From a virus: 64,000 nucleotides of DNA. Of this stretch, positions 9,967-64,000 are shown piece after piece (within the stretch, counting starts at the first letter, position 1; each line of letters opens with the position of its first letter). The notes under the pieces are model-generated. The model saw only the letters and a list, made by a program, of their open reading frames with translations. It was not told the origin of the DNA and searched no databases. The stretch is from positions 44,458-108,457 of IMG/VR virus record IMGVR_UViG_3300042879_004946. One strand, given 5' to 3'. The position numbers and the translations under genes are program-made.

Positions 9967-10618
9967 ATTACATAACGTAACACTTATTGCACTTACTTCA
10001 GTAAAAATAGATAAAACAATTAAAGCTTTATCACACAGTTGTAAGGATATAGAATTTGGTGCTGTTAAATTAGTGTCAGATATTAAACCAGATAATATAA
10101 CCTATCCAATTTATCATGAATATTGTCCTAAGATGAGTAATATTGATGAATGGAATTACGCCGCTATTTATGAACTACCAAAACATGTCGAAACAGAATT
10201 TTGTATCTTGATACATGATGATGGTTTTATCGTTAATGCTGATTCATGGAGAACTGAATTTTTAGAATACGATTATATTGGGGCTCCTTGGCCTTTACCT
10301 AATGACGATTTTTCTTATAGAGATATAAACGGTGAACTTATTAGGGTTGGAAATAGTGTATCACTTAGAAGTAAGAAATTACTTGATTTAGCAATTGATT
10401 TACCATTAGAATGGAAACCATTTCACGGATATTATAATGAAGATGGGTTTATTTGTGTTAATAATAGACATATTTATAAACAACACGGGTGTAAGTTTGC
10501 AGATATAGATGTTGCTAAATATTTTTCACACGAAACAATGATACCAGAAATTGAAGATATCAAACCTTTTGCTTTTCATAGATATGCTGGGACTAATAAT
10601 AAGTACATAAAATTTTAA
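9959..10618 (+). CDS. DUF5672-like putative glycosyltransferase
   Basis: A 219-residue protein (MFKLHNVTLIALTSVK) resembling DUF5672, a GT-like family common in glycan clusters. Visible family features are CILIHDDGFIVN (a D-D motif), DYIGAPWPL, VGNSVSLRSKKLLDL and NEDGFICV, with a late AFHRYAGT. I chose the ATG at 9959 over a TTG at 9950; it overlaps the GT2 stop by 8 bases. DUF5672 proteins are thought to transfer sugars, but the activity is not established. Confidence 0.75.
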   Translation: MFKLHNVTLIALTSVKIDKTIKALSHSCKDIEFGAVKLVSDIKPDNITYPIYHEYCPKMSNIDEWNYAAIYELPKHVETEFCILIHDDGFIVNADSWRTEFLEYDYIGAPWPLPNDDFSYRDINGELIRVGNSVSLRSKKLLDLAIDLPLEWKPFHGYYNEDGFICVNNRHIYKQHGCKFADIDVAKYFSHETMIPEIEDIKPFAFHRYAGTNNKYIKF

Positions 10619-37083: not shown

Positions 37084-37623
37084 TTACATATAAGATTTTA
37101 TTTTATCAGAACCATAAATTTTTATTAATTTTTTAATAACTGACGCAGGATTTTTTCTCATATATTCAAGAGCTTGTGGTGGAATGTCTTCACCATATGG
37201 GCCAAAAATTGTTTTTAATTCCGATTCCCTTTGATAAGGTTCAAAACTAGATTTACGATATTTAGTTTCTTTTCTTTCTAGTTCTTTTTTTGGTGTTGCC
37301 TCATTTAATATTTTAACTACCAAGTTTTCAATATCGTTTTCGTTAAGTCTAATTATTTTACTCATTTTATTTTCTTTTAGGTTTTCCATTTTATCTTTTA
37401 AAAGTTTGATACGATTTTGTAATAACATTCTTGTACCATAAGTTGATTTACCACCTGGTGTGGCGTTACCAATCACTTTAATTTGATTTTCTATTTTAGA
37501 AATAGCTTTTTGTAAATCTTCTTTAGTTTTTAAACTTTCAACATAACCATGACTAAAGTCACTTGGTTGTATCCTACTTTTATCACCTATACGTGATGCT
37601 CTAGCCTCGTTAAGTTTTTTCAT
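37084..37623 (-). CDS. Prohead-associated protein with internal leader motif
   Basis: A 179-residue protein whose start overlaps the protease stop by 4 bases (ATGA). It begins MKKLNEARASRIGDK. A second leader-like block, MSKIIRLNENDIENLVVKI with LNE|A, lies at ~res 87-109 and is close to the start of 28186-28605. The internal ATG could be a second start giving a ~93-residue leader-bearing protein. The C-terminal part (PQALEYMRKNPASVIKKLIK) is helical. Function is unknown. Confidence 0.55.
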   Translation of the reverse strand: MKKLNEARASRIGDKSRIQPSDFSHGYVESLKTKEDLQKAISKIENQIKVIGNATPGGKSTYGTRMLLQNRIKLLKDKMENLKENKMSKIIRLNENDIENLVVKILNEATPKKELERKETKYRKSSFEPYQRESELKTIFGPYGEDIPPQALEYMRKNPASVIKKLIKIYGSDKIKSYM

Positions 37624-38411
37624 TTTAAAAATTTATTTAAACTGTCAATTATTTTTTGACTTCTATTATTTGTAATGTCTGTAAAAGATACTGTCGTAGG
37701 TTTAATATCTTCCATTAAATTCCATTGGCAAGTATAACCGTTACAACCTTTTAATTGTGATTCAGTAAAAGTTTTTAAATCACCAGAATCGGTTGAAATC
37801 CAAGACCCTGGGGTTGATGGTGAGGTTACAATATCCCAACAGATTAATTCAAAATCATCTTGAACAACGTTTTTACCATCTTCTTGTTTTAAAGAACCAA
37901 CACCGCGAGAAGAGATACCAACAGTCCAACCTTTTCTAACCATATTTACTACTTTATCACCAACAGAACTAATAATACCAAGTTTATGATAACCTGGAGT
38001 GGTGTCAATTTCCATCTCACCCATCAAAGTCCTACCATCCCACCAAGTTTTTGTGATTCTATGTGAAACACGGTCAGCATCGATAACGGAGGCTTCCGGG
38101 TGATTTAATTCACCTAAAGAAGTTCCCATTTTAATATATTCTTGATATCTAATATTTTCTCTTTCTAAAATTTCTTTGGGGTAAATTCTACCGTTTTTGT
38201 TTTCCACGCCCCATTTTTGAAGTACGGCATACATGGTGATCACCTCTGGTAATGAACCGTCTTTACCGATATTAGTACCCGATTTAAATTCTCTAATTAA
38301 ATTTTTATTACTAATTCCTTTATACGATAAATCAAGTGAAGCATAACCTGCATCATATTCTACAAGTATACCTCTCCCTAATTCTCCTGGTTTTATTATT
38401 TTCATAAGCAT
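37620..38411 (-). CDS. Prohead core serine protease, T4 gp21-like
   Basis: A 263-residue protein. GELNHPEASVIDADRVSHRI has the conserved N-H-P and S-H segments, and GWTVGISSRGVGS is the G-x-S-S-R-G-x-G-S active-site block of the T4 gp21 family. His and Ser of these blocks are the likely catalytic pair. The protease degrades scaffold and cuts capsid and internal proteins after (L/I)-x-E. It is the enzyme expected to process the leaders described here. It is translationally coupled to the next gene. Confidence 0.85.
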   Translation of the reverse strand: MLMKIIKPGELGRGILVEYDAGYASLDLSYKGISNKNLIREFKSGTNIGKDGSLPEVITMYAVLQKWGVENKNGRIYPKEILERENIRYQEYIKMGTSLGELNHPEASVIDADRVSHRITKTWWDGRTLMGEMEIDTTPGYHKLGIISSVGDKVVNMVRKGWTVGISSRGVGSLKQEDGKNVVQDDFELICWDIVTSPSTPGSWISTDSGDLKTFTESQLKGCNGYTCQWNLMEDIKPTTVSFTDITNNRSQKIIDSLNKFLK

Positions 38412-40945: not shown

Positions 40946-40955
40946 TATAAATATT
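40946..40955 (-). promoter_or_regulatory. Candidate late promoter (AATATTTATA)
   Basis: AATATTTATA on the minus strand lies 16 bases before the start at 40929 and overlaps the gap after the portal gene stop. Confidence 0.5.
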
Positions 40956-43900
40956 AGGAATTTAATAATAATTCATCATCACCGTTTAAATCTTCATCTT
41001 GTTCATCAATTAAACCTTTAATACCTTCAATCATCATCATAATGTCTTCATTTTTACTGATACCTTCCATTAGTAATTTATCAATAATGCTTTTATTTTG
41101 GTTACGAAATCCCTCACCAAAACCTGTTTCAGTTCCTTGTGTTTCCCCACCACCTAATTCAGTTTCCCCACCTAATTCAGTTTCCCCACCTAATTCAGCC
41201 CCACCGCCGAAACCTCCGCCACCTAATTCAGCCCCACCGCCGAAACCTCCGCCACCTAATTCAGTTCCGCCACCAAAGCCACCAGCTTCAGCCCCAGTTT
41301 CAGTTCCACCGGCCCCAACATCTCCCGCGGCAGCTTCACCGCCTGTTGGTTTAATTTCACCATATATTTTATCAACACGAGTGAATAATCCACTATTTTT
41401 AATAACTTCAGCCGTACCTTCAAGTTCTTTAGTTGCGGCACGTTCCAATCTTTGACGTTCATCATCAACTTTAATTTCTTCGTCCGTCCAGTGGAAAATG
41501 TTTTTCTTTGCCCACATATGTGATGTTGGAGCAAAACCAGAATCAATTTGTGAAACTAAGTCCTTGTATAGGGTAACTTTTTCCTTCCATTGTTCAATCT
41601 TTAACATTTCACCCTGTGTTGATGGGTTTGTAAGGTTTAAAGAAAAATTATTTAAATCATCTGTTAACCCTAAAATATACAAATGTATGATTGCAATTTT
41701 ATTCAATTCCTGAATCATTGATTGTTGGATTTTATTAATAGTTCTGGCAAAACGAATGTCTAGCAAAGAAAGCGTCTTACCTTCGCCAACGGCTTCTTCA
41801 AAACCTAAAAAGGCTTTTGGTACCCTAAGAGCTGTTAATAATTTTTTCTGAATATACTCAATATCAGCAATATCACCCAAATTAGAGGCACCTGCCAAAG
41901 TATCTATTGGGTTTGGTGCGTTAGGGTCACGAACCGGAACAAAATAATCTTGGTCAACCGCTAAAGTATTGTAGCGTAAATCTACTTGCCCTGTTTTTTG
42001 GTCAACCAATTGTTGTCTTTTAAATTTATTTGCAACTTTTTGTACATATGCATCAACATCTTTATCATCTATATTACCAACATAAATTTTAAAAACACGT
42101 CTTTCTGGTGCTCTAACAACGCGATAAACTAACATCGCATCTTCGGATAACAAAAGTTGTTTCCAAATACGTCTTGCTTTTTCTAACATTGATGTTCCAT
42201 AAGGTAAACGTCTATCATCACCCAATAAACGGAAATGAGCAACCTCCCACGGGTTAAAATCCATTGCCTTTTCACGCCAACGAAATGTAACCTGTTTTGA
42301 TTTATTCGGCTCTTGGTTTAAATTACCTTCGGGTTTTGTCGGGAACAAACCTTCTTCTTTTCTCTCAATTTCAATATTGGTTAATTGTGATGAACCAATA
42401 ATTCCTTTTTTGTTATCTATTTTTAAAAAAACGAAATTATCACCATATTTACAGTTGGACAAAAACACCCCAGAATCCCTTGAAAACAAACCATTTACAT
42501 CCTTACCTAACACTGGAAAGTTATGTCTATCATGTTCTCCATTAGGCCCAACAGCTTCTAAACAATAGACATCCGATGTTTCATTTAATTTAACAACAGA
42601 AACAACTTTATGGTTTAATAAAGCTTTTTCTGTTGTTTTACCTAAATAAATTGATTTAGCTTTTATGTAATTTTTATCTAAAATGAGACTTGATTTAATT
42701 GACAACACAAAATCAAAATAATTCTGATTTGTTTTTCTATAAATAACCTTATTTAATGTTGTCGGGTTTATCGACTTAGTAATGTCTTTTTTTAATGTGT
42801 AATTTTGATTAAATAACTCAATGAATTCAGGATCGTATTTAAGTAATTCAGATAATTTATTAATACCGACATAATTTTCAGAATTTTTTATAATATTTGA
42901 AATATATGTTAAGCATTCATCAGTTATAGTTATAGTCATACCTTTTTTGGTTTTCTCTATGAACTTATCTGAAGACCAATTGGCTAACATTTTTTTAACA
43001 CGAATTTGATTGTGTTCTGAGTGTAAATCACTATGGTTATATTGTTCAAAATATTTAGGATAAATACCAGACATTTCTTTAGATAAACGTTCTTTTCGTT
43101 TATCTGACCTTAAATATTTATCAATACCTTCCATTCTTTTTTTAACAACTTCAGGAGACCCTAGTGTTTTATCAAAATGTTCTACATGTAGTTTAAAATG
43201 GTCTGAATGTGTTAGTCTAATTAAATTATTAGGATTGTTATTTAATTTATTGAAATCATTGTGATGTGTGTCAAACTGACCTCCAATAGATTTTTCATAT
43301 TCTAAATCCCTAACACACTCATGAGCAACTAAAGAATGTGTAAATTTATATTTACTAGAATTAGGGTTATACACTTTTTCATATCCCACAATGCGGTCTT
43401 TTTTCTTCTCACTTTTTCTAGTATAAAAAGGCATTAAGGATTGGCCAGATGTTAATTCATCGGCTCTTTTATAAGAACCGTCTCTAAGCATGTATTCATG
43501 GTCTGGTGTCGTATCAATATGTGTTCCATCGTCTAAGGTAACTCTTACTAATTCACTATTTTTTCTAGTTAGGTCACACCATATTATTTTACTAGGGACA
43601 ATAGCCTTTGTACCGTCTTGAATAGCGTACGACCATATTTCTTCACCAGATTTAACTCTATTTGAGAGTTCTTTAATAGTAATTTCGGTACCATCTAACA
43701 ATGGTATCATACTATTATCCCTAATAGGTGTGTTTCTAGTCCACATAGGTAAATTTGTTTGAATATCTAAAATATTGTAAAACAAATCTTGTAACACACT
43801 TTTAACTCTTTTAGAGTCAGAATGTATGGTTAAAATATAACCTTGTTCACTTGGGGTTGTTGCCTCTTCGGAGTAAATATCTAATGCAGCGGAGATTTCC

Positions 43901-45357
43901 GGAGTATTATGTGAAAATATTGTATCTGTTGCAAAGTTTTTATACCCTGGAACTGTTAAATCATAAACTGGCATAACACCATAAGGCTCAATAGATTTTA
44001 TTTTATGATTTATAATAACAGATTCTTCAACAGGTTTTTTTCTACCCGCTTGTCCTTTTGTGATACCATAGGCTTCAGTGAATACTGTCCAATTTTTAAA
44101 ACCACCTCTTTCAATCGATCTCATTAGTTTACCTGTGGTCACATTTAAAGTTTTAGCTGTTTTTTGTATTGTGTTACATTTTTCAGCAGTTTCAACTATT
44201 AAATCCCACGGTATTAAATTAAAGTTTAAGTTTTTACGATTTTCAGCACTAGACGGGTTGTATTTTTCAATATTATAAACATCTAAAAAATCCATCCAAT
44301 TTTTAAATCCATTAAATTTTAGTTCATTTTGAATTTTGTGTATAGAAACTTTAAGGTTTTTAGCGGTCAACTCAATTGTTTTATATTTTCTAGCCGTTTC
44401 AACTATTAAATCAAAAGATAATTCTAAGTAAGAAGGATTATTCCTACCAACTCTTTTACCATCCCAGTGAAATTTACCAACATTATTACGACTAACTTCT
44501 ATCATTTTTGCCCTATATTCAGGATTTGCCCACAATTTCTCATTGTTTAATCTAGCATGGTAAGCTCTATGTTCACTTCTGTCCATTATAACCAAATTTT
44601 CTGGGTTATTATTTTTTCCATTAAAATCTTTATGATGGACCTCTTCATTTTCATTTTTAGGTCTGTAAAACCATTCGGCAATTATATCATGTTCAGGAAC
44701 CCAACCATTTTTACCTGATCCTAATTTTGAATTACAGGTATAAATCCAGTTATAATTTTGGTTATTATAAAAAGATTTACGATAGAAAGGCATCATTGAG
44801 TCCCCTTCTTTTAGTTCTTCAACTTTAGCAAAAATACCATCACGTTTTAAAAATCTATGACCATATGTTGCAACAATAAATGAATCATCATCAAAAGTTA
44901 TTTTATATGTCATTTCATCTCTTGTATAATGAGCGTTTCTGGCTTTGGCAGGAACCACTTGTTTTAAATTGTGGTCGTAAGCGTAAGTTATAAATTCATA
45001 ATCTCTACCCTTATCGGCCAACTCTTTAATAGTGATAAAACCATCTGGAGTTGCTATTTTAGTATCACCAATTATTGAAAATTCCATGCCCTCATAATCC
45101 ATATAAGACGCAATTCTAGACGTTTCGTAGTAAACTGCCTTTTGATAAAGTTCACTATCAACTCTTGCCCATTGAGCCTCAAGATAACTTTGTTGTTGTA
45201 ATTCTAATTTTTGTTTACTATAATCTTCTTTAGATTGAAACGTTAAAAGTTCTTTATCATTAAAATTATATTTTGGTGGAGTTCGTAAACTGCCTTTATT
45301 TGGACCAAAAAGATAAAATAACTTTTGGTATATTGTTAAATCTTTATTATCTGCCAT
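40954..45357 (-). CDS. Portal protein, T4 gp20-like, with two inteins
   Basis: A 1467-residue precursor. Exteins: res 1-93, 485-541 and 968-1467, about 650 residues after splicing. TPEISAALDIYSEEATTP, LPMWTRN and CKYGDNFVFLKI match gp20-family blocks, as do PYGTSMLEKARRIWKQL and VPKAFLGFEEAVGEGKTLS. The C-terminus is Gly-rich with repeated GGGFGGGAELGG units. The portal forms the ring through which DNA enters the head. Intein 1 has an HNH-type endonuclease, as has intein 2. A late promoter motif precedes the gene. Confidence 0.9.
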   Translation of the reverse strand: MADNKDLTIYQKLFYLFGPNKGSLRTPPKYNFNDKELLTFQSKEDYSKQKLELQQQSYLEAQWARVDSELYQKAVYYETSRIASYMDYEGMEFSIIGDTKIATPDGFITIKELADKGRDYEFITYAYDHNLKQVVPAKARNAHYTRDEMTYKITFDDDSFIVATYGHRFLKRDGIFAKVEELKEGDSMMPFYRKSFYNNQNYNWIYTCNSKLGSGKNGWVPEHDIIAEWFYRPKNENEEVHHKDFNGKNNNPENLVIMDRSEHRAYHARLNNEKLWANPEYRAKMIEVSRNNVGKFHWDGKRVGRNNPSYLELSFDLIVETARKYKTIELTAKNLKVSIHKIQNELKFNGFKNWMDFLDVYNIEKYNPSSAENRKNLNFNLIPWDLIVETAEKCNTIQKTAKTLNVTTGKLMRSIERGGFKNWTVFTEAYGITKGQAGRKKPVEESVIINHKIKSIEPYGVMPVYDLTVPGYKNFATDTIFSHNTPEISAALDIYSEEATTPSEQGYILTIHSDSKRVKSVLQDLFYNILDIQTNLPMWTRNTPIRDNSMIPLLDGTEITIKELSNRVKSGEEIWSYAIQDGTKAIVPSKIIWCDLTRKNSELVRVTLDDGTHIDTTPDHEYMLRDGSYKRADELTSGQSLMPFYTRKSEKKKDRIVGYEKVYNPNSSKYKFTHSLVAHECVRDLEYEKSIGGQFDTHHNDFNKLNNNPNNLIRLTHSDHFKLHVEHFDKTLGSPEVVKKRMEGIDKYLRSDKRKERLSKEMSGIYPKYFEQYNHSDLHSEHNQIRVKKMLANWSSDKFIEKTKKGMTITITDECLTYISNIIKNSENYVGINKLSELLKYDPEFIELFNQNYTLKKDITKSINPTTLNKVIYRKTNQNYFDFVLSIKSSLILDKNYIKAKSIYLGKTTEKALLNHKVVSVVKLNETSDVYCLEAVGPNGEHDRHNFPVLGKDVNGLFSRDSGVFLSNCKYGDNFVFLKIDNKKGIIGSSQLTNIEIERKEEGLFPTKPEGNLNQEPNKSKQVTFRWREKAMDFNPWEVAHFRLLGDDRRLPYGTSMLEKARRIWKQLLLSEDAMLVYRVVRAPERRVFKIYVGNIDDKDVDAYVQKVANKFKRQQLVDQKTGQVDLRYNTLAVDQDYFVPVRDPNAPNPIDTLAGASNLGDIADIEYIQKKLLTALRVPKAFLGFEEAVGEGKTLSLLDIRFARTINKIQQSMIQELNKIAIIHLYILGLTDDLNNFSLNLTNPSTQGEMLKIEQWKEKVTLYKDLVSQIDSGFAPTSHMWAKKNIFHWTDEEIKVDDERQRLERAATKELEGTAEVIKNSGLFTRVDKIYGEIKPTGGEAAAGDVGAGGTETGAEAGGFGGGTELGGGGFGGGAELGGGGFGGGAELGGETELGGETELGGGETQGTETGFGEGFRNQNKSIIDKLLMEGISKNEDIMMMIEGIKGLIDEQDEDLNGDDELLLNS
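42457..43734 (-). mobile_element. Intein 2 in the portal protein, atypical (426 residues)
   Basis: Residues 542-967. It starts TPIRDNSMIPLLDGTEITIKEL, so there is no Cys, Ser or Ala at the usual first position, and ends GVFLSN before extein Cys968. Block F reads VYCLEAVGPN with Cys at position 4, where most inteins have Asp. That Cys is the nucleophile of class 3 inteins, but the class-3 Trp in block B is Tyr here (TTPDHEYML). An HNH-like segment (THHNDFNKLNNNPNNLIRL) is in the middle. The first residue may be T542 or P543. Confidence 0.8.
43906..45078 (-). mobile_element. Intein 1 in the portal protein (391 residues)
   Basis: Residues 94-484 of the precursor. It starts SIIGDTKIATPDGFITIKEL, with Ser as first residue, and ends IFSHN before extein T485. 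VYDLTVPGYKNFATD is splicing block F. The middle holds an HNH-like endonuclease (VHHKDFNGKNNNPENLV) and two related helix-turn-helix-like repeats (TARKYKTIELTAKNL, TAEKCNTIQKTAKTL). Residues for standard splicing are present: Ser1, His-Asn at the end, Thr+1. Confidence 0.85.
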
Positions 45358-45420: not shown

Positions 45421-48400
45421 TCAGCCACCTAATATTGATTTATTTTTATCTTTATCTTTAAAACCAGGCATCCCAAAGAAAACCCAGTTATGTTCGGTTC
45501 TGGGTGCTTGAATATGCCTAGAAGTATCTTTATATGCTGGACTATTACTAACCATTTCTGGTATTGATTGTACTTCATTACTAGAAACAACCCAAGAATC
45601 TAACATTGCTTTTGCTTGGCCTTTACTTTTTTCAAAATCTTTAAAAGAAGTTTGACTAACATAACAACACATTGCTATTGCCATTAAGCAATCGTCATGA
45701 TAACCTTTCATGTGATCAGGTCTGCCATTTTTAAAAATAAAAGTATCCATTTCAGTAACAGACCTAATAGACCTCACTTTAAAAGAGTTCATCCTAATGG
45801 ATTCTTCTAACTTGGTAATGATGGTATTTCTGTTTTTTTGGAAATTAAGGCCAGGTAATTTACCATCATTCATAAATTTTTCTAATTTTTTATTGTTATT
45901 GACAGCATCAATACCAATAACGGTATCATAATACATCTTTTTAGATGAATACCCAAGTTCAATCATTTTTAGAACCGTTGATACGCCATAACCACCAGTA
46001 ATATCAACAACAGTAAAGGCTTCATATCGATTACCGTATTCAACAGCAATCTCACCTAACGTATCTGGAGCGACTTTACCGTGGTATTCTGCAACTTGAT
46101 TACCTGTTGTAAAATCATATATACAAATACAAGCGGAATCTTCGGCGGAACCTGAAGCTGCGTCTGCGGATAAAATGTATTCATGTCCTAGTTGAGGATC
46201 TTCCCAAATCCACATATTACCATCCAACCATTCGGTTCTAATAGGGTCTATAACATTATTTTTTCTGTGATATTCTATGTACTTACTATCGATAACATTA
46301 TCACCGGAACCGTTAAAAGCACATAACAACTCTTGAGAGATCGTTCTAGGATTGTTATTTAACTGACCACACATCATTTCAAACCAAGGGGCTGTTGGGA
46401 CCCAACCTTCTGTTTCTAATTGGTCGAAATGTTCATATTCCATATCAATTTTTTCCTCAATAACATCACCAGCCTCATTCTTTTTTTGCCATTTCATGCC
46501 TACATTATAACGTGGATCTTGAAACCATCGCATCTCTACAATGTTAAAAGGATTGTTAGTTTTTTCTTTGGTTTTTGCTGAAACGTATGTTTTATAATAA
46601 AGGGCGTCCATTCCGTTTGGTGTTTGGTGACCTAACATGCCATTATATAAAACACTATGACACCATATATCTTCTTCATTATTTGGTAATGAAAAATCAT
46701 AAGTATAATTTTTACTATCGACAATATCTTTTATCGGTACCCAAACAATATTTTCATCTACGTTATTATATTTTTCATTTATAATATCTAAATAACTCAA
46801 CAATAAACCACGACTAACATGATTAACTTTACTATTTTTTCTAGTTATATGTGATATCTTACAATTTTTGTCCGAAAAATATTTTAAACCTAAATCACTG
46901 TTACCATAAGTGGTACGAATTATATCACCACCCATAGGTACAACATCATATGGTTCATTAACTTTATGTTTAACTAAATTATATTTTTTAATATTTTTAC
47001 GTTCCAAACCAAACCCAATTAAATCATAATATAGTTTAGAGTTTTTACTGTTCATATGTAATCTATAGTTCATAGATTCCACTTTAACCAATTTAGTTAC
47101 AGGTGTCAATTTTTCTTGATACTCACATAGTATACCGATGTTCATAAATAACACCCTAAATTGTTCGATAAGTCTTTTAGATGAAGAACATAAACCAACA
47201 TTACCGTTATCACTTCTACTGTAACCATTACCATCCATAAAACCACGTATAAAGTGTATAACATTATCTTTAGATAATGAGAATATACGTTTAGGTATTA
47301 CTTTATTTTTAGCCTTTAAAGATAGATCAAAACCAATGTATTCTAAAAACTCACCCAATTCTTTTGATGACGTTGTATAATGAAATTTACCGTCATAACC
47401 ATATTTTAAGTTTAAATCCCTAAAAATTTGTGAGATATCGTCACCACAACTAATAGTTATGGATGTACCGACATGTTTACCCTTTTTGATAGATTTGTAG
47501 ACACTACCTTTGGATAAAAATAAACCCATAAAATAACTAATATCTTTTGTTATTTTATTTGGGTTAAACTTATTTTTGTTTCTACTATTTTTTTTTGGTA
47601 TAAAATCAGTACAATCATCGTCATTACCCCACATATTTTGATTATACAATACAGATACATAATCCCCTACCGATAAGTCATTTAATTTATACCAACCAAA
47701 ACTATTATCTTTTTGTGAGTAGGCATATAATTTATGGTTTAAACTACCCTCTAAATTAGTAATCTTTGTTTTTATAATTTTAGTGTCAACGTAACCGTTG
47801 TTAAACATGATATTAGAGTGTCTAACACCACCATAACCCATAACACCATAGTTATTTATAACATAACCACCATCTTTAGTGTCATCAATAAATTCTGAAA
47901 CCTCTTTTATACCTTTATCAGTAAAAACAAATGTATCTTTTGTTACACATGAAATTAATATCGCCCTACCACCAGTAGAAAGTGCGGGTTGTGCTGCCGC
48001 ATAAACTTCTTCACCACCTTCAATATATGCCGCCTCATCCATGACTAACAATGTTGGTGTATAACCACGTAATGCATCTAAAGAAGTTGCAACCGCTTTA
48101 ACTTCAGAACCATTAGTTAATCTATAGTGTTTTGCTGAATTTTTTTCTGGGTCAAACCAGGAATCACCACCACTCCAAACGTTCATCCAATTTGGTAGTT
48201 GTGCAGTAAAATCTTTTACTTTTTTTAAAAATTCAATTGCTGTTTCTTGTTTATTTGCCAAAATCAAAACCCTTTGTGGGTTATTTGGATCAGCAAATGC
48301 GGTTATAACCGCTATGTAAGCGGCCGTAGTTGTTGAAACCCCCGCCTGACGAGGTTTCATTACAATGTTAAAACGTTCTTTTTTATAAGAAGTAATTAGT

Positions 48401-48552
48401 TCCCTTTGTTTTGGAAATAATTTAAACCTAACAAAACCTTTTTGTGTTTGGTCGAAAGTTTCCAAAAAATTTTCAATTGCATAAACTGGGTCTTTAATAC
48501 ATTTACCGATTTCTAATAATTTTTGGCTTTTACTTTGTGGTGTATCCGACAT
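45421..48552 (-). CDS. Terminase large subunit, T4 gp17-like, with one intein
   Basis: A 1043-residue precursor; ~601 residues after splicing, close to T4 gp17 (610). MKPRQAGVSTTTAAYI (~res 65-80) is Walker A, LLVMDEAAYI (~168-177) Walker B, and ILIS|TPNG the coupling-motif region interrupted by the intein. The nuclease half has ILSADAASGSAEDSACI, VVDITGGYGVS and DDCLMAIAM with acidic metal ligands. It packages DNA into the prohead through the portal encoded next to it. Confidence 0.93.
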   Translation of the reverse strand: MSDTPQSKSQKLLEIGKCIKDPVYAIENFLETFDQTQKGFVRFKLFPKQRELITSYKKERFNIVMKPRQAGVSTTTAAYIAVITAFADPNNPQRVLILANKQETAIEFLKKVKDFTAQLPNWMNVWSGGDSWFDPEKNSAKHYRLTNGSEVKAVATSLDALRGYTPTLLVMDEAAYIEGGEEVYAAAQPALSTGGRAILISCVTKDTFVFTDKGIKEVSEFIDDTKDGGYVINNYGVMGYGGVRHSNIMFNNGYVDTKIIKTKITNLEGSLNHKLYAYSQKDNSFGWYKLNDLSVGDYVSVLYNQNMWGNDDDCTDFIPKKNSRNKNKFNPNKITKDISYFMGLFLSKGSVYKSIKKGKHVGTSITISCGDDISQIFRDLNLKYGYDGKFHYTTSSKELGEFLEYIGFDLSLKAKNKVIPKRIFSLSKDNVIHFIRGFMDGNGYSRSDNGNVGLCSSSKRLIEQFRVLFMNIGILCEYQEKLTPVTKLVKVESMNYRLHMNSKNSKLYYDLIGFGLERKNIKKYNLVKHKVNEPYDVVPMGGDIIRTTYGNSDLGLKYFSDKNCKISHITRKNSKVNHVSRGLLLSYLDIINEKYNNVDENIVWVPIKDIVDSKNYTYDFSLPNNEEDIWCHSVLYNGMLGHQTPNGMDALYYKTYVSAKTKEKTNNPFNIVEMRWFQDPRYNVGMKWQKKNEAGDVIEEKIDMEYEHFDQLETEGWVPTAPWFEMMCGQLNNNPRTISQELLCAFNGSGDNVIDSKYIEYHRKNNVIDPIRTEWLDGNMWIWEDPQLGHEYILSADAASGSAEDSACICIYDFTTGNQVAEYHGKVAPDTLGEIAVEYGNRYEAFTVVDITGGYGVSTVLKMIELGYSSKKMYYDTVIGIDAVNNNKKLEKFMNDGKLPGLNFQKNRNTIITKLEESIRMNSFKVRSIRSVTEMDTFIFKNGRPDHMKGYHDDCLMAIAMCCYVSQTSFKDFEKSKGQAKAMLDSWVVSSNEVQSIPEMVSNSPAYKDTSRHIQAPRTEHNWVFFGMPGFKDKDKNKSILGG
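46624..47949 (-). mobile_element. Intein in terminase, LAGLIDADG type (442 residues)
   Basis: Residues 202-643. Cys202 is the first residue (CVTKDTFVFTDKGIKEVSEF), and the end is NGMLGHQ, so the last residue is Gln and not Asn, before extein Thr644. Two LAGLIDADG-like helices are visible (SYFMGLFLSKGSVY and FIRGFMDGNGYSRSD). Joining Ser201 to Thr644 restores ILISTPNG, as in other T4-like terminases. C-terminal Gln inteins are known but less common. Confidence 0.9.
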
Positions 48553-53309: not shown

Positions 53310-53725
53310 TACTTTCTAATTTTAAAATCGTCATAATTTAAAACCAAATCAAGTGAATAGAGTTTTTCTTCAACTGATTTTTGGTTTTCACCAAATTTAA
53401 AAACCAATCTTTCTTCTGGATAATCATTACCATCTTCTAATTTCTCCCAAGCTAAAGCTATAATACCTTCAACAGCATTGTAAATTTGAAAAACACCTGA
53501 ATTTTGTATTAATTCCAAATCTAATTCTGATGTTTTTAACCCACCAACAAGTTTAATAAAACTTGAATCAGGGGTTAAGTCGTTCTTATCGTTAATAACC
53601 GAAGATTCGTACCAAGATTCGTCCCAGTCCCAGTTTGTTCTATCTGAAAACAAAAATTCAAAGATATGTTCACCTTTGAAATTTGTCCCAATTTTATTGA
53701 CGTATATAAGATATAAATCTTTCAT
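53309..53725 (-). CDS. Hypothetical protein
   Basis: A 138-residue acidic protein with aromatic strands (IFEFLFSDRTNWDWDESWYES), which looks like a compact beta-rich fold. It shares one base with both neighbouring genes, so it is in one transcript with them. Function is unknown. Confidence 0.55.
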   Translation of the reverse strand: MKDLYLIYVNKIGTNFKGEHIFEFLFSDRTNWDWDESWYESSVINDKNDLTPDSSFIKLVGGLKTSELDLELIQNSGVFQIYNAVEGIIALAWEKLEDGNDYPEERLVFKFGENQKSVEEKLYSLDLVLNYDDFKIRK

Positions 53726-55938
53726 TAATAATTTCTGTTAAATCTAGCTTTTGGTGCAGGTTCCTCACCGGGTTCAATAAAAGGCGGAGGCGTAAAAGGA
53801 CTTGGTTTAGTACCAGGTCTGGTGCCAGGCTTAATACCAGGTTCAGTTTTTGGCCTTTCTTTAGGTCTAGCGGGTGCAGGATTTCTCATATCAATATTTT
53901 TTTCATCCAAATATTCCTCAAAATCTAAATAAGAATCAACTGGTTGACCTGTAAATTTTTTATTTTTCATTTGACCCATTTCAATATCACCAACAGAATT
54001 AATTCTAACTTTTCCAACTACTTTGTTGTTTTTTTTAAGTTCTAAATAAATTGTTTTTTCTTCTGGATCGGAAGATTTGTCTTTATGACAATAACCAACC
54101 TTTAAACCGTGCTTTAATGCCATTTCTTCAACATCCATAAAAGCTTGTTCTTGTTCATAAGTTTCCATTTTATCAACCAAAGATTCTCTTATAATATTTT
54201 TTTTAGTTTTAATAGACTCATAAACATAAGAATTACATCCACTTCCATCCACAGTAAAAGGCTCGTCTACTTCATAATTTGACTCAGTTCTAGGTATAAA
54301 ACCAATACCCATACAATCGTGACAATCATTAAATTTACCTTGGCAAGTTGGGCAGGTCGTATACATTTCACTCGACATAAAATCTTCTTGGTCTCTCATA
54401 TACTCGTTATGGTATTCAGCTTTTGGTGCAGGTTCCTCACCGGGTTCAATAAAAGGCGGAGGCGTAAAAGGACTTGGTTTAGTACCAGGTCTGGTGCCAG
54501 GCTTAATACCAGGTTCAGTTTTTGGCCTTTCTTTAGGTCTAGCGGGTGCAGGATTTCTCATCATTCTTTCGTCATACATATAATCTTCACTAGAGCCCAT
54601 ATTCTCTAGAGTTCTAATGTCTCTAGCTAAATCACTAACCTCAGAGAAGTTATAAATAACAGGTTCACTAAAATCTCTCATCGCTTTTTCTTTAATGTGC
54701 TCAGGAATTTCAGAATAATTAATTTCATTTGAGATGTACATCCTATAACCGTCACGATCAATTTCAACCATACCAAACTTACCTTGAATGTCGTTATTGC
54801 CCACTTTAAATTTTTTATCCCCTCCTAACTTCCTAACCAAAGTGTTTTTTATATTTTCAATATCATAAATCTCAAGATTTCTACCTTTAATTTTTGAACC
54901 ATATTTTGTATATTTTGACATATAATCGCTTTCACCGATTTCATCGTCTAAAATTAAATCCATTTCTTTACCACCTCTCATAACTCTAATTGGTTCGGTT
55001 TCATCACCGGCAATATTTGGATTACTCGCCCCTGATAAAATTTCTTCTTTTTCTTTTTCTGACAATTCATCCCAATTAGCCATATTATCATATTTAGACA
55101 TGTAACTCATAAAATCGAATTCTTCATCAGAACTTTCACTTTTCCTTTTCTTAACCGCTCTAATGATGTCTTTTTTATCATTAGAATCCATATTTTCTAG
55201 GTCTAAAGCTGAAATTACGCTCTTAACAACCCATTTCATGGTGTCAGATGATAGATCTTCCGTGTCTCTAATTTTTTGACCTAATTTACCAGTCAATCTT
55301 TGAATATCTTTAATAGGATCATCCTCTAAATCGTAATCTTCATCGTCTTCATCAAATTCTTCCTCACTATCTTCCTCGGTTTCTTCCTCACCACCAAAAT
55401 CAAATTCTTCCTCACTATCTTCCTCGGTTTCTTCCTCACCACCAAAATCAAATTCTTCTTCACTACCTTCCTCACTACCTTCCTCACCACCAAAATCAAA
55501 TTCTTCTTCACTACCTTCCTCACCACCAAAATCAAATTCTTCCTCAGCTGGAGTTTCTTTAGCTGGTTCTGTTTTCTTTTTTTTATTTTTTAAAACAAAT
55601 TTTTTTTCGGTTATGATATCAGATGACAAAATATCATTATTTTTTTCAACACCATAAGTTCTATTAAAATCTTCGAACATAATATTAAGTCTCTTAACGG
55701 CTTCTTCATAAGATTGATATTGATTTTTTGTTTTATTAGCCAAACCACCAATATAATCGTAATCAATACCGTCATTAGATTCTTTAATGAAGTATTTTTT
55801 ATTTTCTCTCACAATGCCATAAAATTTACCGTTAGGTGATTTTTTTTGTAATTCTATTGCGGAGTTTGATATGTTTTCATTAATAGGTTTTTTAATACCC
55901 ATTAGTTCTATCATCCTTTTTAAGTCTTTGTTGGTCAT
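53725..55938 (-). CDS. Acidic-repeat protein with Cys knuckle and duplicated Pro-rich segment
   Basis: A 737-residue protein. Res ~125-205 are acidic repeats (EEEFDFGGEE). CPTCQGKFNDCHDCMGIGF is a DnaJ-like zinc-knuckle pair (C-x2-C-x-G). A 48-residue Pro/Lys segment (MRNPAPARPKERPKTEPG...) occurs twice, encoded by two identical 144-base stretches. The start MTNKDLKRMIELMGIKKPINE|N has an I-N-E leader-like end. A scaffold or packaged protein is possible. Confidence 0.6.
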   Translation of the reverse strand: MTNKDLKRMIELMGIKKPINENISNSAIELQKKSPNGKFYGIVRENKKYFIKESNDGIDYDYIGGLANKTKNQYQSYEEAVKRLNIMFEDFNRTYGVEKNNDILSSDIITEKKFVLKNKKKKTEPAKETPAEEEFDFGGEEGSEEEFDFGGEEGSEEGSEEEFDFGGEEETEEDSEEEFDFGGEEETEEDSEEEFDEDDEDYDLEDDPIKDIQRLTGKLGQKIRDTEDLSSDTMKWVVKSVISALDLENMDSNDKKDIIRAVKKRKSESSDEEFDFMSYMSKYDNMANWDELSEKEKEEILSGASNPNIAGDETEPIRVMRGGKEMDLILDDEIGESDYMSKYTKYGSKIKGRNLEIYDIENIKNTLVRKLGGDKKFKVGNNDIQGKFGMVEIDRDGYRMYISNEINYSEIPEHIKEKAMRDFSEPVIYNFSEVSDLARDIRTLENMGSSEDYMYDERMMRNPAPARPKERPKTEPGIKPGTRPGTKPSPFTPPPFIEPGEEPAPKAEYHNEYMRDQEDFMSSEMYTTCPTCQGKFNDCHDCMGIGFIPRTESNYEVDEPFTVDGSGCNSYVYESIKTKKNIIRESLVDKMETYEQEQAFMDVEEMALKHGLKVGYCHKDKSSDPEEKTIYLELKKNNKVVGKVRINSVGDIEMGQMKNKKFTGQPVDSYLDFEEYLDEKNIDMRNPAPARPKERPKTEPGIKPGTRPGTKPSPFTPPPFIEPGEEPAPKARFNRNY
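53746..54561 (-). repeat. 144-bp exact direct repeat inside one gene
   Basis: 53746-53889 and 54418-54561 are identical over 144 bases (48 codons), 672 bases apart and in the same frame. The identity at wobble positions points to recent duplication or gene conversion. Confidence 0.95.
55340..55545 (-). repeat. Acidic tandem repeat region
   Basis: Repeats of TCCTCACCACCAAAATCAAA and related units encode E-E-F-D-F-G-G-E-E blocks in the 53725-55938 gene, with a long higher-order repeat (EEETEEDSEEEFDFGG twice). Confidence 0.85.
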
Positions 55939-60687: not shown

Positions 60688-61488
60688 TTAAATGGGTAAA
60701 TTAACTTTGTTTAAGAGTTGATTTGAAACATGTGTGTAAATTTCTGTTGTTTTCACATTAGAGTGTCCTAATATTTTCTGAATTATTTTTAAATCAGTAC
60801 CATTCTCTAAAAGATTTGTTGCACAACTATGTCTCAACTGGTGGATGTGATATTTCTCACCTAAATATTTTTTAACAATTTTATTACAACTCCCTGAACT
60901 ATATTTTAAACTATTCTGACCGTTGAATAGGTACTCTTTAGGTTTATATTTTATAAAATATTCTCTAAGTAATTCCAAAATTTTTTGTGATAGAGGAACC
61001 ACTCTGTCTTTTCTACCTTTGGCGTTTTTAATATGGATAATCATTCTTTTGGAATCGATATCTTCAATTTTAAGGTTAATTACTTCAGACACTCTTAATC
61101 CAACTGAATAGGTTAAAGATAATATTGATTTGTGTTTAATATTTTCAATTTTAGATAATTGTTCTTTAATATATTCTCCATCAATAACCTGTGGTAATTT
61201 CTTCTCTGATTTGGGTCTCTTAAATGAGACTTTATCGTATTTCTTATTAAGTCCGAATTTGTAGAGGAAACGGATTGCATTTATTACTTGATTTTGTTGA
61301 GAAACTGAGGTGAATTGATAATTATCTAAATAAGATTGGAAATCATTAGATGTTAATCTTGTTGGTGGTATTGAAGCACCCTCCAAAAATTGATTTATGT
61401 AAAAAAGGTAGGATTTTATTGATCTATCCGAGTAGTTTAAGTACTTCAATTTTTGATTACAAATTTTGTAATAATCTGTTTTTTTCAT
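60688..61488 (-). CDS. Tyrosine recombinase next to the attC-like array
   Basis: A 266-residue Xer-type recombinase. SAM-like N-terminal domain res 1-~95. Catalytic set visible: Arg132 (GLRVSEV), Lys158 (NAKGRKDR), His216-x2-Arg219 (HQLRHSCATNLLENG), His242 (LGHSNVKTTE), Tyr251 (IYTHVS). The ~20-residue extra domain that marks IntI integron integrases between patch II and HxxR is absent. It points away from the array, as intI does, with a candidate attI core 52 bases from its start. It may move the cassettes; this is inference. Confidence 0.85.
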   Translation of the reverse strand: MKKTDYYKICNQKLKYLNYSDRSIKSYLFYINQFLEGASIPPTRLTSNDFQSYLDNYQFTSVSQQNQVINAIRFLYKFGLNKKYDKVSFKRPKSEKKLPQVIDGEYIKEQLSKIENIKHKSILSLTYSVGLRVSEVINLKIEDIDSKRMIIHIKNAKGRKDRVVPLSQKILELLREYFIKYKPKEYLFNGQNSLKYSSGSCNKIVKKYLGEKYHIHQLRHSCATNLLENGTDLKIIQKILGHSNVKTTEIYTHVSNQLLNKVNLPI

Positions 61489-61514
61489 TACTAAAACATT
61501 GGTTTTAAAGGGTT

Positions 61515-61550
61515 TTTAGCCACTTGTTGATATATGATAGTTATAGTGAA
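61515..61550 (+). other. Candidate attI site
   Basis: GTTATAG at 61540-61546 lies 52 bases from the recombinase start and at the outer end of the first cassette. ATATATGATA to its left is loosely like the right arm of the attC at 61789-61945. No left partner arm is visible, as in attI sites of integrons. The stop codon of 61541-61879 lies in the core. Confidence 0.45.
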
Positions 61551-61879
61551 TTTTGTTTCTTCCACTTATCTAATTCTTCTCGTGTTGGTGCCGAATATAT
61601 ATCTTCGTGTATATTATTGTAGTTTTTTAATTTACCAACATAAATACCCTTATCACCAGCATACATTATACCAACTTCATCTTCTGATAATTCTTTACCT
61701 AAATAATAGTGGAATGTTGGTAAATTAAAACCAACTTTCTTTAATTTTTTAGCAGATTTCTTATCAACTACATCACCAACAAAACTCACTATAACATCAG
61801 ATATATTCAATTTTTTCTTTGAATTTTCTGTAAGGAAGTTCCTAAAGTTGTCAATGTGTTCTCTCATTTCTTTGCTCAT
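61541..61879 (-). CDS. Cassette gene F: leader MSKEMR-HID plus unknown domain
   Basis: A 112-residue protein starting MSKEMREHIDNFRNFLTE|NS, then LNISDV. The start and first ~25 codons lie inside attC F. The first part equals that of 61952-62173 in most positions and ends F-L-T-E, a likely prohead-protease site. The remainder (VKKVGFNLPTFHYYLGKELSEDE-like) is different from the neighbour. A late promoter motif is upstream at 61894-61903. The payload function is unknown. Confidence 0.65.
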   Translation of the reverse strand: MSKEMREHIDNFRNFLTENSKKKLNISDVIVSFVGDVVDKKSAKKLKKVGFNLPTFHYYLGKELSEDEVGIMYAGDKGIYVGKLKNYNNIHEDIYSAPTREELDKWKKQNSL

Positions 61880-61945
61880 AATTTTATTTTATATATAAAT
61901 ATTGAAAATTCAGAAAAAACTAAATATATCTGAGTATCGTTAGTG
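61789..61945 (+). other. attC-like site F (157 bp)
   Basis: Left arm CTATAAC then ATCAGATATATTCA; right arm TAAATATATCTGAGTAT then CGTTAGTG. The arms pair over ~12 bp (TCAGATATATT). The loop holds the promoter, start codon and N-terminal leader of the cassette gene F. Confidence 0.65.
61894..61903 (-). promoter_or_regulatory. Late promoter motif inside attC F
   Basis: AATATTTATA on the minus strand, 14 bases before the ATG at 61879. 61861-61902 is nearly identical to 62155-62196 (about 40 of 42 bases). Confidence 0.55.
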
Positions 61946-61951
61946 ATAATT

Positions 61952-62173
61952 TTATTTTGAATATTTGTGTTTGAACCATTTTTCAAATTCTTCTAACAAT
62001 TCTTCTTCATTATAAGGTTGATTACTAATACTTGTGAAAGCATAGTGTGAAAATGCTTCAAACAAGTCTTTTTTAGTAAAACTATCACTAACATCAGATA
62101 TATTCAAGTTTTCTGATTCAGTTAGTTTAAACTTGTTAAATTTGTCTATGTGTTGTCTCATTTCTTTGCTCAT
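61952..62173 (-). CDS. Cassette gene E: leader MSKEMR-HID plus helical tail
   Basis: A 73-residue protein starting MSKEMRQHIDKFNKFKLTE|SE, then LNISDV, then a short helical part (FEAFSHYAFTSISNQPYNEE) ending FEKWFKHKYSK. The start and leader lie in attC E. The leader is shared with 61541-61879, the tail is not. Late promoter motif at 62188-62197. Confidence 0.65.
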   Translation of the reverse strand: MSKEMRQHIDKFNKFKLTESENLNISDVSDSFTKKDLFEAFSHYAFTSISNQPYNEEELLEEFEKWFKHKYSK

Positions 62174-62230
62174 AATTTTGTTTTATATATAAATATCAGA
62201 AAACCTAAATATATCTGAGAAACGTTAGGT
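62086..62230 (+). other. attC-like site E (145 bp)
   Basis: Left arm CACTAAC then ATCAGATATATT; right arm AAATATATCTGAGAAA then CGTTAGGTGC. Left spacer 1, right spacer 5 bases, as in the others. The loop carries promoter, start and leader of gene E. Confidence 0.7.
62188..62197 (-). promoter_or_regulatory. Late promoter motif inside attC E
   Basis: GATATTTATA on the minus strand, 14 bases before the ATG at 62173; same place as in attC F. Confidence 0.6.
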
Positions 62231-62271
62231 GCAATAAAAAATAAATTTCCCACCGCACCCTACCATCAACA

Positions 62272-62583
62272 TTAGTCCTCAAATTCAAAATATTCATCCT
62301 GTGCTGGAATAATCTTTCCATAAATAGGTTCTGACTTATTCCATTTACCATCAACACAACTGTAAATGATTTTCACAGCCCTTTCATCGTGATAAGGCGG
62401 CAATCCTCCAGTTCTTGAAAATTGTGAAGTTTGAGTGTAAATCATTTCGATTGTTTCTCCTACCTCATTTACCTCTTTGAATACCATTGGATTCCATAAT
62501 CCACCGTGTGCCGTTGTTCCGCTTGCAATCGTTGATGTCATTGCACCTGAAGCTGTGTTTGTTTTAATGTTTAATGTTTCCAT
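62272..62583 (-). CDS. Cassette gene: unknown, GC-richer
   Basis: A 103-residue protein (METLNIKTNTASGAMTSTIA...) with Thr/Ser/Ala-rich start and strands (VKIIYSCVDGKWNKSEPIYG). Base composition is richer in G and C than its neighbours, suggesting a different origin. It lies between attC D and attC E. No family is recognised. Confidence 0.55.
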   Translation of the reverse strand: METLNIKTNTASGAMTSTIASGTTAHGGLWNPMVFKEVNEVGETIEMIYTQTSQFSRTGGLPPYHDERAVKIIYSCVDGKWNKSEPIYGKIIPAQDEYFEFED

Positions 62584-62633
62584 TTTCGTGTTATTTAAAA
62601 TTTAAGCCCACGCTAAATTTATTTTTTACAGAC

Positions 62634-62731
62634 ACCTAACAGCAGGTAGGCAAAATGCCGCTATGAGCCTGAGTGCTTTGATTTAAAATTTGTGGTAAGC
62701 GGCACTATCGCCTACCTGCAAAACGTTAGGC
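62634..62731 (+). other. attC-like site D (98 bp), best stem
   Basis: ACCTAAC, then GCAGGTAGGC at left; GCCTACCTGC, AAAAC, then GTTAGGC at right. Inner segments TGCCGCT and AGCGGCA also pair, with one more base on one side (AAAA against GATAG), like the extrahelical bases of integron attC. It is GC-rich and clearly a folded single-strand site. Confidence 0.8.
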
Positions 62732-62736
62732 ACAAT

Positions 62737-62985
62737 TTATGAAATGGTAATAGGTTTTACTATAACCGTTGCGCCATAACTTGCAAAATCAGTTGCACTA
62801 TATGTACCATCTTTTCGTTCTCTAAGTTCTGTATCTTTATGAAAGAACCTTGTTTTGATATAATTAGTTGCAACTGATTTTGCTTCATCTAAATCAAACT
62901 TATAACCTAATTCTTCAAACACCATTTCATCTGAGTCTCTGGTCGTGTCTGCCAAATTTCGCTCTGTGTAAATTCTATATGCCAT
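62737..62985 (-). CDS. Cassette gene: unknown
   Basis: An 82-residue protein (MAYRIYTERNLADTTRDSDE...). It starts 11 bases from attC C and stops 6 bases from attC D, filling the cassette. It looks like a small mixed alpha/beta protein. Function is unknown. Confidence 0.6.
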   Translation of the reverse strand: MAYRIYTERNLADTTRDSDEMVFEELGYKFDLDEAKSVATNYIKTRFFHKDTELRERKDGTYSATDFASYGATVIVKPITIS

Positions 62986-62995
62986 AATAAACTGT

Positions 62996-63119
62996 GCCTA
63001 ACAAAGTGTATAAGCAATAGCCGTTAGGCATTTTAAACTATTGCAGTTGTTAATATTTAATTTTCTACTTCTAATTAAGTTTTGTGTTCGGCTACTGCTC
63101 ATACACTCAACCGTTATGT
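62996..63119 (+). other. attC-like site C (124 bp)
   Basis: GCCTAAC, AA, then AGTGTATAAGCAATAGCCG at left; CGGCTACTGCTCATACACT, CAACC, then GTTATGT at right. The arms match over 19 positions with two changes. A second core-like GTTAGGC (63023-63029) lies within the loop. Confidence 0.8.
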
Positions 63120-63134
63120 TTAATTTTAAAAATT

Positions 63135-63503
63135 TTATGATTGTTTTATACAAAACTTATCATTTAATTCTTTTGACCATTCTTGTAACGAACCCATATT
63201 GCTATCAACCCTTACCCAATCACCATAAGTTTTGTGTTCCCAATAAATAGAACCATCATATTTTTCATTGTATAAAAACTTACTTTCATTGTCTTGTTTT
63301 TCATTCCAAGTTTCACCATCATTTATCATAAAAGTAATTTTCTCACCTTGTTTAAGTTTTGAAATAATATCTTTTATAGAATATCCTTCTCTGTTAATTG
63401 CTAAATTAACTTTATTTACATTATTGTAATCAAAATCATATTCAAAACTTAAACCACTATCAAGTAAGTTTTTTATTTCTATTTCTGCTTTTTTTGTTTC
63501 CAT
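63135..63503 (-). CDS. Cassette gene: unknown acidic protein
   Basis: A 122-residue protein. The ATG at 63503 (METKKAEIEIKNLLDSG...) is chosen because a longer frame would start inside attC B. It has KLKQGEKITFMINDGETWNE and YWEHKTYGDWVRVDSN, a beta-rich fold. Function is unknown. Confidence 0.6.
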   Translation of the reverse strand: METKKAEIEIKNLLDSGLSFEYDFDYNNVNKVNLAINREGYSIKDIISKLKQGEKITFMINDGETWNEKQDNESKFLYNEKYDGSIYWEHKTYGDWVRVDSNMGSLQEWSKELNDKFCIKQS

Positions 63504-63542
63504 ATATTTATTTTTTATTTGTATAAAATTTTTAAAACTAAA

Positions 63543-63596
63543 ACATAACAACAAATAAAACACATTAAAACGATGTTTTATTTGCAACCGTTATGT
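63543..63596 (+). other. attC-like site B (54 bp)
   Basis: ACATAAC, AA, CAAATAAAACA at left; TGTTTTATTTG, CAACC, GTTATGT at right: an 11-bp perfect stem, left spacer 2, right spacer 5. This is the shortest site, near the minimum size of integron attC. The stop codon of the 63591-63830 gene lies in its right core. Confidence 0.8.
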
Positions 63597-63830
63597 GTAA
63601 TGATTTATAACAATATCACAAAGAATTTTAGAAGTAGTCTTTATATCTTCCACTTGTTTATTTATAAATTCATCTTTAGTAATTATACCTTTCATCAATT
63701 CTTTATGAATTAACGTTATATAAAAATTGTGTCTAATTAATTCCTTTTCGAAATCACTACACATAACATCAGATATATGTAATTTTTTATCTGTGTTATC
63801 AACTTCTGTGTTATTATTTACTTCTTCCAT
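63591..63830 (-). CDS. Cassette gene: unknown
   Basis: A 79-residue protein (MEEVNNNTEVDNTDKKLHISDVM...). The LHISDV segment is encoded by the left arm of attC A and recalls LNISDV in the E and F genes. The C-terminal part is helical (KELMKGIITKDEFINKQVED). No promoter motif of the late type is seen here. The stop TAA lies inside the attC B core. Confidence 0.55.
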   Translation of the reverse strand: MEEVNNNTEVDNTDKKLHISDVMCSDFEKELIRHNFYITLIHKELMKGIITKDEFINKQVEDIKTTSKILCDIVINHYT

Positions 63831-63890
63831 ATTATTTAAGTTTTATGTTTCAATTTAAGAAAAAACTACATATATCTGTGACCGTTATAT
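63771..63890 (+). other. attC-like site A (120 bp)
   Basis: ACATAAC, AT, CAGATATATGTA at left; TACATATATCTGTGA, CC, GTTATAT at right: a 12-bp stem. The loop contains the start of the 63591-63830 gene. Confidence 0.75.
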
Positions 63891-63912
63891 GCAATTTTCA
63901 GTTTGTTTTGAA

Positions 63913-63999
63913 TTATTTAATAAATCTGCATCGCACCCAATAAATAATATCACCATTTGGTTCGTGTTGTGTATATAAAGATAGAAAATAACATTTGGT
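63913..63999 (-). CDS. C-terminal fragment of a further cassette gene (tentative)
   Basis: A frame open from the window edge encodes ...LYTQHEPNGDIIYWVRC..., ending FIK-stop, between attC A and the edge. A second open frame ends in the attC A core. The array therefore seems to go on beyond the window. The start is not in the window. Confidence 0.35.
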   Translation of the reverse strand, partial: TKCYFLSLYTQHEPNGDIIYWVRCRFIK

Positions 64000-64000
64000 A

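Follow-up and report, generated by a model that had tools for sequence, protein, structure and literature searches.

Can a phage carry an integron of its own? This question is raised by the right end of IMG/VR virus record IMGVR_UViG_3300042879_004946, which is 108,457 bp long and of which the right 64 kb, hereafter the window, was analysed. Near the end of the window, a gene for a tyrosine recombinase stands beside a row of small genes separated by imperfect palindromes. A first-pass annotation, made from the letters alone, described an integron-like array on a phage-like molecule, with six attC-like palindromes, an attI-like core, cassette genes pointing toward the recombinase, and an enzyme without the insert that is specific to the integron integrase IntI. 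Here, we find that an attC model, the folding of the sites, a boundary rule of integrons and the G|TT borders in related phages support that description. The array is, with high confidence, an integron that a T4-like phage carries as a self-contained unit and whose cassettes are exchanged between phages. The architecture, the exact borders, the turnover of cassettes and the spread of the family are demonstrated at the level of sequence.

Array architecture and cassette borders

The recombinase gene (60688-61488, minus strand) encodes an insert-less integron integrase of 266 amino acids (aa), with a SAM-like N-terminal domain and a match to Phage_integrase (Pfam PF00589, 2e-39). The attI core (61520-61546, plus strand) is located 51 bp upstream of the recombinase start and has its crossover at G61540|T61541. 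As in canonical integrons, an attI with a G|TT crossover adjoins the integrase gene, and a recombinase at this distance sets the locus apart from clusters of attC sites lacking integron integrases (CALINs). The core reads GATATATGATA|GTTATAG in the window and TATATATGATA|GTTATAG in the family consensus. Its attI side is kept across 43 loci as far as G|TTA, and past this point no similarity remains. The attI and attC sites have GTTA alone in common.

The attC sites were sought with a hairpin detector that uses only AAC plus an arm and an arm plus GTT, with spacers limited by design to 1-3 bases on the left and 4-6 on the right; the outer boxes are ignored. It recovered all six palindromes, on the plus strand and none on the minus strand. 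The starts first annotated at 61789, 62086, 62634, 62996 and 63543 were right, while that of the sixth is 63761 and not 63771. The detector gave three other plus-strand matches in the window (21114, 47525 and 62360), the last of which, inside cassette 3, is probably false. Across 44 phage loci it found 186 hairpins, compared with 1 in locally shuffled sequence. The phage attC sites are asymmetric hairpins of 41-190 nt, with the R''-L''-loop-L'-R' organization and the bottom-strand type of canonical integrons.

A covariance model was built from 27 bacterial attC sites of six Bacteroidota genomes, with no phage sites. It matched five of the six window sites, all on the minus (bottom) strand, with E-values of 1e-11 to 1e-4. 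Bottom-strand folds were better than all 200 shuffles at four of the five sites tested (z of -3.5 to -4.5; the fifth, -1.6). The matched sites are attC 2 (62085-62231, R' G at 62224; match 62083-62233, 7e-5; z -3.9), attC 3 (62633-62732, R' G at 62725; match 62631-62734, 6e-11; z -4.0), attC 4 (62994-63120, R' G at 63113; match 62993-63122, 1e-11; z -3.5), attC 5, of the short 41-nt class (63542-63597, R' G at 63590; match 63540-63599, 1e-4; z -4.5), and attC 6 (63759-63891, R' G at 63884; match 63758-63893, 4e-6; z -1.6). The hairpin of attC 1 occupies 61787-61946, with its R' G at 61939. In the related loci searched, a few of them bacterial, the model found 106 sites. It found none in class 1 integron loci, where the sites recovered were too few and too diverse for a covariance model of canonical attC. 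Chance hairpins were ruled out by the shuffled sequence together with the covariance model.

An integron cassette has TTRRRY at its start and the G of its own attC at its end. The R'' box of a site should therefore pair with the box that opens its own cassette, one site earlier in the array. This one-cassette shift holds for all six sites of the window, as read from the sequence, the box pairs being GTTATAGTGA/TCACTATAAC, GTTAGTGA/TCACTAAC, GTTAGGTG/CACCTAAC, GTTAGGCAC/GTGCCTAAC, GTTATGTTT/AAACATAAC and GTTATGTGT/ACACATAAC. The first of these, GTTATAGTGA, is situated at attI and is exactly complementary to the R'' box of attC 1. Among 143 site pairs from 44 phage loci, gathered without use of the outer boxes, R'' is complementary at 6/6 bases to the previous boundary in 95 (66%), to its own boundary (own R') in 3 (2%) and to a random boundary in 1. 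The phage cassettes are thus bounded at G|TT, and their R'' pairs with the bases that open the same cassette, as in canonical integrons.

Six complete cassettes of 285-501 bp were delimited in the window, each with one main open reading frame (ORF), which is on the minus strand. Cassette 1 (61541-61939) has G|TT borders and an ORF of 112 aa (61541-61879) that starts inside attC 1. Cassettes 2 (61940-62224; ORF 61952-62173, 73 aa), 4 (62726-63113; ORF 62737-62985, 82 aa) and 6 (63591-63884; ORF 63591-63830, 79 aa) end at the R' G of attC 2, attC 4 and attC 6, respectively. Cassette 3 (62225-62725) encodes a protein of 103 aa (62272-62583), and cassette 5 (63114-63590) one of 122 aa counted from ATG (about 63135-63503). 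A seventh cassette (63885-64000), cut by the contig end, opens with TTATATGCAATTTT like the others. The array is at the right end of the contig and runs off it.

In a canonical integron, genes are mostly read from the attI side toward attC. This is not the case in the phages, where 88 of 92 cassette ORFs of at least 60 aa are antisense to the usual direction, and the array lies upstream of the recombinase. The annotated orientation toward the recombinase applies to the longest ORF of all six window cassettes and to the family. Phage and bacterial layouts are alike in that the recombinase and the cassette genes mostly share one direction of transcription. Of the antisense ORFs, 36 of 88 begin inside attC, and some translate an attC arm as the peptide LNISDV. 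Upstream of the cassette genes, a search for a promoter motif gave nothing convincing beyond attC words.

Exchange of cassettes and their cargo

Whole cassettes differ between close relatives exactly at G|TT. The first cassettes of loci L004 and L005 have no similarity from TT onward, although the two loci show 99.75% identity over 6850 bp. The same is true of L007 and L010, which are 100% identical over 2648 bp. L007 and L009 have attI and cassette 1 in common and diverge exactly at the next G|TT. A 956-bp cassette is found at position 1 in L014 and at position 8 in L019, with exact ends. Over 487 bp, the window's cassette 5 shows 99.8% identity, with base-exact ends, to a cassette of L029 (also present in L145), where the flanks on both sides are unrelated and the integrase is only 66% identical. 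Furthermore, the 3' 153 bp of cassette 1, within which attC 1 lies, match L043 at 98.7% identity. The cassette 3 protein has relatives in 9 other phage contigs; none was found in 296 Bacteroidota genomes, in a search that had no positive control.

The cassettes code mostly for small proteins without named relatives. The named products are two DNA methyltransferases (PF01555 and PF02086), a 5'-deoxynucleotidase-like protein and a phosphoheptose isomerase/HAD-like protein; another has a weak PARP-like match (2e-5, below cut-off). Immunity families of the type VI secretion system (T6SS) were absent from the phage cassettes tested. In several phages, two N-terminal leaders recur ahead of unrelated bodies, of the types MKDLRKFIKTTIREFLNE and MSKEMREQIDRIKNFKQFxNE. 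The leader motif occurs in 30 of 96 ORFs, where shuffles give 12.7 on average and 23 at most, and in loci with a defined side all 17 distinct leaders are on the array side. A search for the leader peptide in cultured phages gave no match, the query being too short to be informative. The predicted structures of two leader-bearing proteins were too poor to be used (predicted local distance difference test scores of 33 and 35). The internal head proteins of T4 have only a short capsid-targeting sequence in common, are injected, and counter host restriction (PMC3012670). In T4 this sequence is N-terminal and is cleaved off by the prohead protease. Like the T4 proteins, the leader-bearing products have variable bodies behind a short conserved N-terminal leader, and the phage has a protease of the gp21 type, although the likeness of the leaders themselves is one of sequence alone. 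Together with the head maturation protease of the window, these leaders suggest that such cassette products may be injected.

Several points weigh against an active integron with this role. The IntI-specific domain, which work cited in PMC9668308 reports to be necessary for the activity of known IntI, is missing from the phage recombinase, and the case for its activity would come from sequence evidence only. The attC 1 site scores poorly with the covariance model (61786-61948, E = 1), ranking next after the five matches and before chance matches at 2.5 and 3.4. Similar attC copies may also recombine by homology, which could account for some of the exchange but not for the attI swaps, and the leader and counter-defence reading draws on motif resemblance and few annotated cassettes. 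The nature of the evidence for activity, and the similar attC copies in many cassettes, would also suit a fossil array, in which cassettes that host integrons, or an enzyme active in the past, had inserted are now shuffled by homologous recombination only. We regard such a fossil as unlikely. The reading frame and the catalytic residues of the recombinase are intact in most members of the family, and near-identical phages differ at attI, where homologous recombination cannot place the breaks because only GTTA is in common with attC.

A second alternative is a contig artefact or a captured segment of a host integron. The position of the array at a contig end fits it, other contigs also end nearby, and a few phages with captured pieces of host integrons are known (PMC9892861). 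We consider it very improbable, since the unit of recombinase, attI and array recurs elsewhere at many loci, a sizeable share of which lie within contigs of 60-460 kb, the phage integrases form their own branch, and a T4-type head protein is encoded on 16 of 26 tested contigs that carry the recombinase. The contigs without it may be fragments. In all, the recombinase family is encoded at 49 IMG/VR loci, on contigs of up to 464 kb. In contigs of at least 20 kb the array side is often truncated where the contig stops, as it is in the window, which fits variable and repetitive arrays. The attC model has matches on every one of 12 further contigs (117-465 kb). The three outcomes that the first-pass annotation had named against itself, namely no attC-model match, borders away from GTT in relatives, and misassembly with host DNA, did not occur. 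Extra clusters of attC-model matches, distant from the integrase, were seen on the contigs of L035, L016 and L021 (G313, G301 and G304, respectively), so that a single phage can hold several arrays.

The insert-less recombinase and its relatives

The best NCBIfam models for the window recombinase are archaeal XerA (195 bits) and the integron integrase TIGR02249 (158 bits, with a cut-off of 265), both below cut-off; XerC and XerD models also match. In an alignment, the catalytic residues R-H-R-H-Y are retained, and both inserted stretches typical of IntI1, IntI2 and Bacteroidota IntI are absent, as they are across the family. The phage enzyme therefore lacks the additional domain by which IntI is defined in the field (PMC9668308), and it is by this definition that insert-less systems would have been overlooked. 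In a quick tree, scored with the Shimodaira-Hasegawa-like approximate likelihood ratio test (SH-aLRT), canonical IntI forms a single clade (100). Of 32 phage rows, 31 group with 2 cultured-phage integrases, 1 Sunxiuqinia row and 1 Bacteroidota row (95). This clade is placed beside insert-less Bacteroidota enzymes, some of which head attC arrays, and the insert-less enzymes and IntI are jointly separated from XerC/XerD (98). Several inner branches, and hence the branching order of the groups, are unsettled in this tree.

The scores with XerA, XerC and XerD raise the alternative of Xer/dif (pdif) modules, as on Acinetobacter plasmids, in which small genes between dif-like sites are moved by XerC/XerD-like enzymes. 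Small-gene modules and a Xer-family enzyme are common to both systems, which differ in the type of site, in strand asymmetry and in the single attI. We give this alternative hardly any weight. Each Xer/dif module has the same short dif-like site on both sides, whereas the phage sites are long asymmetric hairpins matched by the attC model, the single fixed attI is unlike all attC beyond GTTA, and borders and one-cassette shift obey the integron rule. On one Acinetobacter plasmid (L055, 4046-6150), a recombinase 48% identical to the phage enzyme lies beside tet(X3). In front of tet(X3) is a G|TTA box, and behind it a half site resembling the R''-L'' of attC, with no match between the two boxes. 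A former place of tet(X3) among the cassettes of an insert-less integron is therefore no more than a lead.

Compared with class 1 and Vibrio-type chromosomal integrons, the phage unit likewise has an integrase, an attI, R''/L''/L'/R' hairpins and G|TT borders, with the same array polarity. It differs in lacking the IntI-specific insert, in the opposite direction of its cassette genes, and in its location on phage genomes, where attI and the integrase clade are its own. Relatives are also found in Bacteroidota. Chains of 3-7 sites that obey the shift rule surround insert-less relatives in L057, L060, L097, L099, L100, L102, L103 and L106, where shuffles give 1-2; such a chain is detectable near some, not all, of these relatives. 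Apart from L060, these arrays, on chromosomes and plasmids, have recombinases 43-48% identical to the phage enzyme, G|TT borders, and attC sites of about 118 nt with spacers of mostly 1-3/5. Unlike in the phages, the array is downstream of the recombinase and the genes are mostly sense. On L057, a Chryseobacterium plasmid, a GC-rich inverted-repeat site of 135 bp is present twice in the array (5928-6063 and 10404-10539), and its outer boxes are linked by the shift rule. Canonical IntI with the insert was observed in 84 of 296 Bacteroidota genomes. Near 12 of these canonical enzymes at most two linked sites were found, by a chain detector that had no positive control on canonical arrays.

L060, a Parabacteroides plasmid, carries SUKH and Tdi1-type immunity genes, has A|TTA borders and resembles the recombinase-associated acquired interbacterial defence (rAID) clusters of Bacteroidales (PMC12247911). 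Its insert-less tyrosine recombinase is 42% identical to the phage enzyme. Like rAID clusters, the phage unit combines a related recombinase with repeated intergenic motifs. In rAID, in contrast, a co-oriented array of orphan T6SS immunity genes is downstream of the recombinase, with A|TTA instead of G|TTA, and the phage array is upstream. In L060 (4848-8510), attC-like intergenic hairpins show the same one-cassette shift at A|TTA, with 6/6 bases at all four sites tested. The rAID arrays may be insert-less integrons.

The phage system is one branch of a wider lineage of insert-less integrons in Bacteroidota and not an isolated oddity. A broader proposal, to which we grant somewhat less than an even chance, is that of a second kind of integron. 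It would be built on XerA-like recombinases without the IntI domain, be native to Bacteroidota and their phages, and include rAID arrays, and many of the reversed phage cassettes would encode proteins packed in the head and injected. The first-pass annotation knew of no described phage integron of this kind. This is too broad, since bacterial IntI in temperate phages and integrase-less CALINs, including in virulent phages, were reported by Qi et al. 2023 (PMC9892861). Those phages also have attC sites and cassettes, with methyltransferases among the cassettes and virulent phages among the carriers; the present system differs by having integrase, attI and array as one unit at dozens of related loci. 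No insert-less, phage-encoded integron was found in the literature searched, which largely excludes subscription journals.

Proposed mechanism and genomic setting

We infer the following scheme. A simple tyrosine recombinase that lacks the IntI domain would recombine circular cassettes at G|TT, the partners being the short attI beside its gene and the folded bottom strand of the attC hairpins. Through these sites, phages gain, lose and exchange cassettes. The cassette genes run toward the recombinase, as do the phage genes nearby and unlike normal integron cassettes, and because of this direction they would probably be expressed from phage transcription or from their own promoters. Their most likely role would be that of an anti-host or counter-defence gene set that can be exchanged quickly.

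It thus appears that accessory genes are traded in modules among large T4-like viruses of Bacteroidota-type bacteria. Large phages thereby have a cassette system with swaps at a single fixed site, which can be observed in natural populations. Since the IntI-specific domain is a requirement of integron software and definitions, the insert-less lineage would either be missed or pass for attC clusters without an integrase. Should the enzyme be active, integron recombination does not need a domain regarded as necessary for it, and natural insert-less forms make it possible to test how integron integrases arose from Xer enzymes. Moreover, the system offers a concrete mechanism for the assembly of rAID immunity arrays in gut Bacteroidales, which is called open in PMC12247911.

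The remainder of the window agrees with a phage, as annotated. It encodes a T4-type major head protein (32312-34084, minus strand; phrog_138, 2e-62), whose nearest cultured relatives are in Microcystis phage Mel-JY01 and Flavobacterium phage immuto (37-41% identity), the head maturation protease (37620-38411, minus strand; phrog_207, 2e-40), a portal protein, a large terminase and a thymidylate synthase. The portal ORF (40954-45357) has 1467 aa, with HNH endonuclease matches within it, and the large terminase ORF (45421-48552) has 1043 aa, with split terminase matches. From their sequences, both look like they hold intein or homing-endonuclease insertions. A homing endonuclease gene (30402-32117) adjoins the major head protein gene. 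Finally, an ORF at 53725-55938 contains acidic repeats as well as two copies of a proline-rich stretch almost 50 residues long.

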